Assembly (NCBI RefSeq): GCF_002286735.1
Contig: NZ_NRTA01000017.1
Coordinates: 42,656-80,504, forward strand
DNA from: Leptolyngbya sp. BC1307
Lineage (GTDB): Bacteria > Cyanobacteriota > Cyanobacteriia > Phormidesmidales > Phormidesmidaceae
Direction of reading: 5' to 3'
DNA: 37,849 nt
Below, in pieces: positions 35,255-37,537 of the stretch. The notes beneath the pieces were generated by a model. It ran no database searches and had not been told where the DNA came from. It saw only the letters and a program-made list of their open reading frames with translations. The stretch's first letter is position 1, and each line of letters opens with the position of its first letter. A program made the position numbers and the translations under genes.

Positions 35255-36385
35255 ATGCCTGCCACTCCCCCCGACTCCCAATCTAAAGCAGACGCCGCGC
35301 TAGAGATAGGCAATATCCCTACGGCGCAAGCGACTACCCAAGAAACGATTGACACGCTACAAAGCCAGCTGCGCCGCAAAGAAGGCAATTGGGTAGAGTG
35401 GGGCAAAGCCTGCCAAACCCTGCAAAAAGCGGGCATGATGCCGCAGGCCATCTTCGAAGCCACCGGGTTTGAACCCATCCAGCAAAATCAGCTGATCGTT
35501 GCAGCTCAGGTCTTCGATTCGATGATCGCAGGTGGCGTCAGCGAGGCAGCCCGAGTGCACTATCAAACCCGAGGCAGCGACAGCCTCTATGAGTTTCGCA
35601 TTTTGTCACAAGACATCCGGGCAGCGGCAGCCGACTTTGCCTTTAGCAACGGGCTTGACAGTGAGCAGGTAAGAGACATTGTCAAAGGGCTGCGAGACTT
35701 CTCCTACAGTGACAAGCCCCCTGTCGGGTTTGAAAAAACTATGGGCGATGCCGCCGCCTACCACTACTGGCGGTTGGCCCGGCAAATGAGCGATTTGCAG
35801 GCTCGGTCGCGGCTAATCGCCCAAAGTCTGCGGTTTGTCACCAGCGTCAGCGCCCGTAGCAAAATCGAGCAGCTCTTAACCGACTTCACGGTGGTTTCTG
35901 CCAAAGCCGCGCCGCGTCTGCCCATCTTTCGGTTAGAGAGCGAAGTAGATTCGCCAGTGATCGTGCCGGTTGCAGGTCAGTTGCCGCTGCCGACAGCCGA
36001 CTATAAAGCGGTGCCCGCTGTCGAGCCTGAAGAACCTTTCGGCATGGTGAAGTTTGCCGGTACAGGAGCCTGGCTGCCGGTACCCGGCTGGCAGGTAATG
36101 CTCAAGGCCGAAGACCCCATCGCCCTGCTCGCCGAATACGGCCAGCTGCCTAATCCACCTAATGAGGTAGCGAAGACTGAGCCGGTGATGGTCATCATTG
36201 ACCGGGCCAAGCGCCAGTGGGATGAATTTAGCTATTTCGTTTACGATGCGGACGGTCAACTGGGTCTGCGCTGGTTTGAAGAAGCGCCTCAGACCACACT
36301 GCTAGGCGGCCTTATCTTGATCATGCGACCTCAGAAGATCCTCGATCAAAACTATAGCCACGAGTATTGGCAAATAGATGAGTAG
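35255..36385 (+). CDS. raf1: Rubisco accumulation factor 1
   Basis: A 376-residue Raf1, a chaperone that brings Rubisco large-subunit dimers together for assembly of the hexadecamer. The helical alpha-domain (about 35-220) has the family block NWVEWGKACQTLQKAGMMPQ and IFEATGFEPIQQNQLIVAAQ, followed by the RbcL-contact region. A flexible linker precedes the C-terminal beta-domain (about 250-360, FGMVKFAGTGAWLPVPGWQV), which dimerises Raf1. Domain order and length are as in other cyanobacterial Raf1. The start at 35255 is the first ATG of the frame; the first ~35 residues are variable, as in other members. It lies divergent from tRNA-Ala and is followed by a small gene 18 bases on. Confidence 0.94.
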   Translation: MPATPPDSQSKADAALEIGNIPTAQATTQETIDTLQSQLRRKEGNWVEWGKACQTLQKAGMMPQAIFEATGFEPIQQNQLIVAAQVFDSMIAGGVSEAARVHYQTRGSDSLYEFRILSQDIRAAAADFAFSNGLDSEQVRDIVKGLRDFSYSDKPPVGFEKTMGDAAAYHYWRLARQMSDLQARSRLIAQSLRFVTSVSARSKIEQLLTDFTVVSAKAAPRLPIFRLESEVDSPVIVPVAGQLPLPTADYKAVPAVEPEEPFGMVKFAGTGAWLPVPGWQVMLKAEDPIALLAEYGQLPNPPNEVAKTEPVMVIIDRAKRQWDEFSYFVYDADGQLGLRWFEEAPQTTLLGGLILIMRPQKILDQNYSHEYWQIDE

Positions 36386-36403
36386 AGATAGGAAGGTACC
36401 CTG

Positions 36404-36604
36404 ATGGCTATAGAACGTCGGCTATCGCGCAGTATGTTTGCAGAGGCAGAAGTCGTCGAGCTGCGGCAAGTCTGCATGACGCCGAGCGGCCTGTTTGAAC
36501 CGGGCAAATATATCGCCGGGCAACTGCCAGACGCTGCTTTTGAAATGGGCTTGGTAGAGAAGCTGCCGCCTGTGCGCGGCAAGAGTGAAGAAAAGGAGAC
36601 CTGA
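36404..36604 (+). CDS. small conserved protein between raf1 and recR
   Basis: A 66-residue soluble protein, [22 protein letters not shown] to the end, containing [24 protein letters not shown]. There is no membrane segment or cysteine pair. The ATG has AGGAAGG about seven bases upstream, and the gene sits 18 bases after raf1 and abuts recR (stop TGA at 36602-36604, two bases before the recR frame at 36607). Its composition and tight spacing support a real co-transcribed gene. Similar short proteins ending in LVEKL seem familiar from cyanobacteria, but I know no function. Confidence 0.68.
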
Positions 36605-36606
36605 TC

Positions 36607-37203
36607 ATTTACACGCGCCCCCTCGCCAAACTGATTGAAGAATTTCAGCGCCTGCCTGGCATTGGGCCAAAGTCAGCCCAGCGGCTAGCTATGCACATGC
36701 TCAAGCGCCCGGAGGCAGAGGTGCGCGCCCTAGCCACCGCTCTGGTTGAAGCGAAGCAACAGGTAGGGCAGTGCTCCCGCTGCTTTCACCTCTCAGCGGA
36801 GCCAGTCTGTAATATTTGCCTATCTCAAACCCGTGACCCACATACGCTGTGCGTCGTCGCCGACTCGCGAGATGTGATCGCGCTAGAAAAAACGCGGGAG
36901 TATAAAGGCAAGTACCACGTTTTAGGTGGGCTGATTTCGCCGATGGATGGGATTGGCCCTGAACAGCTCAATATTGGTCAGCTCGTCCACCGGGTCAACA
37001 AAGAAGGCACAGGCGAAGTGATTTTGGCCATCAGCCCCAGCATTGAGGGCGACACCACGACACTGTACGTCGGTCAACTGCTGAAGCCCTTTACCCGAGT
37101 CACCCGGATTGCCTTTGGCCTACCGATGGGCGGCGACCTGGAGTACGCCGATGAAGTCACTCTAGCGAGAGCCCTCGAAGGGCGGCGAGAACTGGATACG
37201 TAG
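36607..37203 (+). CDS. recR: recombination mediator RecR, with a non-canonical start codon
   Basis: A 198-residue RecR: helix-hairpin-helix [13 protein letters not shown] (16-28), a C4 zinc finger (C56, C59, C68, C71 in [16 protein letters not shown]), and a Toprim domain with [20 protein letters not shown]. RecR works with RecO and RecF to load RecA at gaps. The first ATG in frame is at 36691 and would delete 28 residues, including the helix-hairpin-helix. Upstream, the frame is open after a TGA at 36586-36588. The conserved start [17 protein letters not shown] places the natural start at ATT 36607 (GGAG at 36595-36598, eight bases before) or ATC 36604; CTG 36601 overlaps the previous stop. 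No ATG, GTG or TTG is available. Confidence 0.95.
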
Positions 37204-37345
37204 GCCCAGCCCAGCAGATCCTATAGACCTAAGTCATACACCTAAGCCACACAAAAGGCAGCCTCACTTCGATAACGTGAACCGGCCTGAGTTAGCTGTA
37301 TTAGTTAGAAGGCTTGTGCATCAGCAGAAAATGCGAGAGGCTGCG

Positions 37346-37537
37346 CTAGTAGGCTAAAGTCTCTAGCGTATCGCGCAGATATAGACGCACTAGCTGGTCG
37401 TCCGAAGTTGCGGTGGTGATGGCTGAAAGCTGCTCTGAGCGCCAGCGCTGAAAACCGGAGCTAGCGGCGATCGCATTTTTCAGACTCTGCCAAAGCTCAG
37501 CGTCTTGGGCGGCGTGAGCAGGCGATGAATTTGCCAT
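37346..37537 (-). CDS. small conserved soluble protein
   Basis: A 63-residue protein, MANSSPAHAAQDAELWQSLK onward, with the blocks IAASSGFQRWRSEQL and LYLRDTLETLAY; these look like a widespread small cyanobacterial family, without a known function. The frame is open four codons further to an ATG at 37549, but GGAG six bases before the ATG at 37537 fixes the start. It is helical, soluble and has no cysteine. It converges with recR across ~140 bases holding an 8-bp inverted repeat (37258-37265 with 37337-37344) with a long spacer. Confidence 0.62.
   Translation of the reverse strand: MANSSPAHAAQDAELWQSLKNAIAASSGFQRWRSEQLSAITTATSDDQLVRLYLRDTLETLAY

Follow-up and report, generated by a model that had tools for sequence, protein, structure and literature searches.

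Recurrent absence of a canonical start codon at recR across oxygenic cyanobacteria

In most recR loci of the oxygenic cyanobacteria examined, a canonical start codon is lacking, the codon found in its place turns over without leaving the noncanonical state, and a Shine-Dalgarno element and a pyrimidine at position -2 stand in register with it. This class-wide pattern is our main finding, and it would place recR among the genes that are held at weak starts. One such locus lies in the window, our term for the whole stretch of DNA analyzed (37,849 nucleotides from Leptolyngbya sp. BC1307). From the pattern we infer initiation at the noncanonical codon, low output of RecR, and selection for that low output. 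It is quite probable that AUU at 36607 initiates RecR in the window, that most oxygenic cyanobacteria use varied weak codons at this gene, and that selection keeps initiation weak and output low. The class-wide extent, with codons specific to lineages, is an addition to the preliminary description of this DNA that the comparison supports.

In the window, recR occupies positions 36607 to 37203 of the forward strand (198 codons plus the stop) and encodes the recombination mediator RecR. Its product scores 262.8 bits against TIGR00615, above the cutoff of 162.55, and is thus a member of the RecR family, with the Pfam domains in their proper order: helix-hairpin-helix (RecR_HhH, residues 7 to 49), Cys4 zinc finger (RecR_ZnF, 53 to 72), Toprim (Toprim_4, 80 to 169), and the C-terminal domain (RecR_C, 171 to 194). 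A family search found one copy in the source genome, and the closest named relatives, among the best 80 of 554, belong to Phormidesmis (93 to 94% identity), which suggests a Leptolyngbyaceae-type cyanobacterium as the source. Upstream, the frame is closed by TGA at 36586 to 36588, after which it reads AGA AAA GGA GAC CTG ATC ATT TAC ACG CGC CCC. Read directly, the window bears out the earlier claim that the conserved start has no ATG, GTG, or TTG: from the stop at 36586, none occurs in frame until the ATG at 36691 to 36693, which is codon 29 if ATT counts as codon 1. A scan of 36100 to 37400 for promoters and terminators gave matches at chance level only.

The likely start is the ATT at 36607 to 36609, with GGAG 8 nt upstream. 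The Shine-Dalgarno element AAGGAG lies at 36593 to 36598, strong and well spaced at 8 nt; its GGAG (36595 to 36598) stands 5 nt from the ATC at 36604 to 36606 and 8 nt from ATT, as had been described. The preliminary description left the choice between ATT and ATC open, and comparison with relatives, as it had proposed, supports the first: in the window's family, each of the 27 genomes examined, the source genome among them, carries ATT (16) or ATC (11) just ahead of the conserved tyrosine (Y). Also, the two pyrimidines before ATT (TC, 36605 to 36606) agree with the -2 pyrimidine of 64 of the 67 ATT/ATC loci. The place of ATC 36604 is not conserved, being held by CCC, ACC, GCC, TCT, and other codons in ATT/ATC loci. 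CTG at 36601 to 36603 does overlap the preceding stop as CTGA (TGA, 36602 to 36604), and the same CTG recurs in just one further locus of the family (L221). ATT is thus better supported than ATC or CTG as the start in the window.

The ATG at 36691 was rejected as a start because the cut would enter the helix-hairpin-helix domain; codon 29 falls within the RecR_HhH match, and the warning that a start here would cost this domain was correct. More generally, among 186 noncanonical loci, 148 have no ATG anywhere in the first 60 codons, and at no single position of the first 35 codons do more than 68 carry ATG, GTG, or TTG.

Both a family search and genomic position were used to gather recR loci. 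Each genus contributed one or a few genomes, and the sample is wide by genus and not random: the search of 388 genomes, which found recR in 378, supplied the best-scoring places among the matches listed, and relatives of the window's protein were the best 80 of 554. In the other 10, some of them 99% complete, a six-frame search gave no recR match, and some cyanobacteria may therefore lack the gene. A script parsed 283 of the 291 loci and, with duplicates removed before counting, yielded 237 distinct oxygenic and 16 distinct nonphotosynthetic loci. The remaining 8 were read by hand and stand outside the 237: 4 are oxygenic (3 distinct) and all have ATT, and 4 are nonphotosynthetic and all canonical. 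A locus was counted as canonical if ATG, GTG, or TTG occurred no more than four codons away from YTRP, the conserved motif at the start of the protein, or from its variants.

By this rule, 190 of the 237 distinct oxygenic loci are noncanonical and 47 are canonical, and so a normal recR start is tolerated. By genome, the noncanonical state holds for 153 of 186. It characterizes 116 of 139 genera throughout; another 21 are canonical throughout, and 2 contain both states. Of 41 families, 27 are wholly noncanonical, 9 are wholly canonical, and 5 are mixed. In an earlier set of 220 distinct loci, 145 had no ATG, GTG, or TTG at any place between the in-frame stop and the start, and another 37 had one only farther upstream; three of these 37 were judged singly (L003, L023, and L229), and in them the upstream codon shares bases with the Shine-Dalgarno element.

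The pattern is particular to recR among the genes compared. In a uniform test on the same group of relatives, with 30 loci per gene, a canonical codon was found from 25 codons before to 3 codons after the profile start in all 30 loci each of infC, recA, recF, and recO (120/120) and in 10 of 30 for recR. With the narrower range of -12 to +3, the counts were 29 for infC, 26 for recA, 30 for recF, and 29 for recO, as against 8 for recR. In nonphotosynthetic relatives in the phylum, all 20 recR loci have a canonical codon no farther than five codons from this place (16 scripted and 4 read by hand); the 16 include L373, which has ATG at codon -5 and was listed as GTT in the tally by genome. The single locus checked outside the phylum, recR of E. 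coli K-12, starts with ATG. Two oxygenic loci, L154 and L151, also have an ATG start; we take their genomes to be Gloeobacter violaceus PCC 7421 and Synechococcus sp. JA-2-3B'a, respectively. Together, these canonical loci make the noncanonical start appear derived within oxygenic cyanobacteria. As the trait spans much of the class, the suggestion that a start codon had recently been lost in the window does not hold.

Four types of start cover nearly all noncanonical loci, and 4 of the 237 loci fit none. ATT or ATC directly ahead of the tyrosine is found in family f31 (7/7 genomes) and others besides the window's own family, f1. ACG stands one codon farther up, in all 24 genomes of family f32 and in others. 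GTT or GTC directly ahead of the tyrosine occurs in 24 loci, and this class is the weakest of the assignments, because CTG also stands one or two codons upstream in 7 of the 24 and GUU lies two changes from AUG. The fourth type, CTG two codons farther up with no Shine-Dalgarno element, accounts for 32 loci. Of these, 31 belong to family f2, where CTG occurs in 31 of 39 genomes; this family seems to resemble the marine Synechococcus and Prochlorococcus group. Among 32 f2 loci with CTG at this place (f2 loci include, e.g., L222 to L251), 26 have a TANATT element 21 to 22 nt upstream of CTG, a distance that hints at a very short leader lacking a Shine-Dalgarno element. Class sizes differ by one between counts because a single ACG-ATC sequence was taken as ACG for class and spacing and as ATC for the pyrimidine count. 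Two further loci, L094 and L179, have ATG 2 nt past GGAG and ACG at 8 nt; they were counted as canonical and their state was omitted from the tree, and ACG may remain their actual start.

Several features of the sequence mark the proposed starts. A Shine-Dalgarno element, scored in every class alike as GGAG or GAGG no more than 22 nt from the start, is present in 147 of 154 loci with ATT, ATC, ACG, GTT, or GTC starts versus 8 of 47 canonical recR loci (Fisher P = 2e-26, a value not corrected for kinship). An alternative scoring range anchored on the tyrosine codon gave 147/154 versus 6/47. The element occurs in 21 of the 120 control-gene loci and in none of the 32 CTG loci. Its spacing is regular: GGAG precedes the start by 6 to 11 nt in ATT/ATC loci and by 7 to 9 nt where ACG is at codon -2, and in two odd loci with ACG at -1 or -3 it still stands 8 to 9 nt away. 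A pyrimidine at -2 is found in 64/67 ATT/ATC, 60/63 ACG, 29/32 CTG, and 19/24 GTT/GTC loci, and it holds although the starts of these classes stand at different distances from the protein; at -1, 59 of 67 ATT/ATC loci have a pyrimidine. This sign is a matter of degree, since canonical recR (33/47) and the control genes (infC 13, recF 23, recO 19, and recA 15 of 30) often share it.

In the ATT/ATC class, the three letters of the codon take 0, 0, and 11 parsimony steps (the last between T and C only). The zeros arise by construction, because class membership fixes the start letters. The three-base periodicity that begins at the codon and the turnover upstream of it do not arise in this way: positions -9 to -6 take 25 to 27 steps each, -5 takes 6, and -4 takes 16. 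Purifying selection thus runs from the recR start codon onward.

A single-gene tree with 232 rows requires a minimum of about 48 changes between start types but of only about 16 across the canonical boundary. ACG could become ATG by a single transition, yet all 24 genomes of f32 keep ACG. The Shine-Dalgarno element is mostly absent at canonical recR starts, which suggests stabilizing selection on low RecR output. A kinship-aware test of this contrast gave 5 independent pairs on supported branches, of which about 4 showed the expected opposition between the two features and none ran against it, a result short of significance (median P = 0.125); with so few pairs and such a P value, a trade-off between start type and Shine-Dalgarno element is only suggestive.

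In the scheme that we favor, a strong Shine-Dalgarno element would position the 30S subunit at the recR start, the initiator tRNA would pair imperfectly with the near-cognate AUU at 36607, and initiation would be slow. Selection would act on weak initiation and not on one particular codon, so that RecR would be made at a low, codon-limited rate. The scheme would be common to most of the oxygenic cyanobacteria examined, with AUU/AUC, ACG, GUU/GUC, and CUG as its codons. The picocyanobacteria-like family, with CUG, no Shine-Dalgarno element, and probably a short leader, may arrive at low output by another route. The pattern as a whole suggests that the cell keeps RecR scarce or under special translational control.

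Starts of this kind have precedents. The infC gene of E. coli starts with AUU and is under autocontrol by IF3; this start reportedly limits infC expression (Butler 1987, Brombach and Pon 1987). The noncanonical AUU start is shared with recR, but infC encodes the very factor that reads the start, whereas recR is a DNA-repair gene. In the 30 cyanobacterial infC loci checked, unlike in E. coli, a canonical codon lies close to the profile start. E. coli pcnB, which encodes a low-level protein, shares the AUU start and is not known as more than a case of a single gene in a single lineage. By its title, a survey by Gvozdjak and Samanta (arXiv:2008.10758) treats bacterial genes that prefer non-AUG starts. 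As in genes of the infC and sigR kind, recR has no usable ATG, GTG, or TTG and carries a conserved noncanonical codon instead.

A close likeness is to sigR of Streptomyces, which starts at GTC behind an extended Shine-Dalgarno sequence, AGGAGGTG. IF3 represses this gene, and a change of its start to ATG, GTG, or TTG leads to overproduction (PMC5472188). The same study describes its noncanonical start as conserved in related genomes of Streptomyces and misannotated by gene finders, with no evidence of it in other actinobacterial genera (PMC5472188). Like sigR, recR combines a noncanonical start with a strong Shine-Dalgarno element, conserved in related genomes. The sigR start, however, was proved by experiment, whereas that of recR is predicted from sequence; and where sigR has one codon in Streptomyces, the recR trait extends through much of a class, and its codons turn over within the noncanonical state. 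The titles and abstract openings found in our literature search mention no unusual recR start, and an earlier mention may exist. Six passages on recR in a comparative study of cyanobacterial repair genes never discuss its start, and the term "start codon" is absent from that study (PMC5101192).

The resemblance to sigR raises a specific form of the weak-start explanation, a plausible one in which regulation and not just a low level would be selected: IF3 would reject the mismatched start, and RecR synthesis would track how much free IF3 there is relative to 30S subunits, and hence the state of growth or stress. We hold this tentatively. An infC match was present in 55 of the 56 genomes searched, some with two, but infC copy number, judged by eye, has no obvious link to recR start type, and the scarcity of Shine-Dalgarno elements at canonical starts fits a fixed low output at least equally. 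Put more broadly, and with the same reserve, oxygenic cyanobacteria might long have kept a start-codon gate on recR, in which AUU, AUC, ACG, GUU, and CUG drift and AUG is avoided, so that the fidelity of initiation, through IF3 and the state of the ribosome, would determine RecR supply and would tie recombinational repair to translation status. If so, natural ACG and GUU starts would be kept across whole bacterial families.

It was also noted, in genomes G000 to G006 and relatives, that cyanobacteria often have two infC-like genes, one scoring about 225 to 249 bits and the other about 134 to 161 bits. In the window's genus, only the lower-scoring kind was found, and so the main IF3 of this genus may be lost, divergent, or missed.

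The neighborhood of recR bears on a second alternative. The gene order in the window is raf1, a 66-codon open reading frame (ORF), and recR, all on the forward strand. raf1 (35255 to 36385) encodes Rubisco accumulation factor 1, with the Pfam domains RuBisCo_chap_C, Raf1_N, and Raf1_HTH. The 66-codon ORF (36404 to 36604) has no Pfam or NCBIfam match; it is conserved, with a homolog before recR in 19 other loci. In these Leptolyngbyaceae-type genomes, the ORF between raf1 and recR encodes 63 to 66 residues that are 73 to 89% identical. Ribosomes that finish it at the TGA at 36602 to 36604 could resume at ATT, only 2 nt on, and the preliminary description had raised such coupled reinitiation in connection with a lost start. 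We consider this improbable as the source of the trait. The 2-nt gap is peculiar to the window, and where the ORF has a match in the 19 other loci, that match stops 51 to 155 nt short of the tyrosine codon of recR, so the adjoining stop and start of a translationally coupled pair are not kept in relatives. The remaining loci have no upstream ORF match (many offer only about 400 nt of upstream sequence), and most are still noncanonical. Coupling may add to recR translation in the window; it cannot explain the trait.

A programmed frameshift, in which translation would begin at a normal start in another frame upstream and enter recR with the aid of the Shine-Dalgarno-like site, is very unlikely. 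As a raw count, 59 of the 190 noncanonical loci have such an ORF, which begins at a canonical codon 20 or more codons upstream and stays open past the recR start, but it is lacking in the other 131; three-base periodicity is absent upstream of the recR start, and the Shine-Dalgarno element and the -2 pyrimidine hold the spacing of a start codon. The chance of a sequencing or assembly error, which the preliminary description had considered, or of a broken gene is negligible: the noncanonical state recurs in many genera, the 153 genomes include single-contig ones (L008 and L024), the RecR domains are intact, and selection is purifying from the start codon onward.

Among the genera examined of this bacterial class, most have one housekeeping repair gene that does without a canonical start, with at least four types of codon in its place. 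RecR dosage may be controlled at translation in cyanobacteria, and the recR loci offer material at hand for comparative study of the purpose of non-AUG starts. Gene finders limited to ATG, GTG, and TTG would probably shorten, lengthen, or overlook RecR in many cyanobacteria. As a separate observation, the RecR proteins of two loci, L406 and L407 (genomes G307 and G328), contain an in-frame low-complexity insertion rich in Asp, Thr, Ala, and Pro, which precedes the EVILALTPS motif and splits the family match in two.
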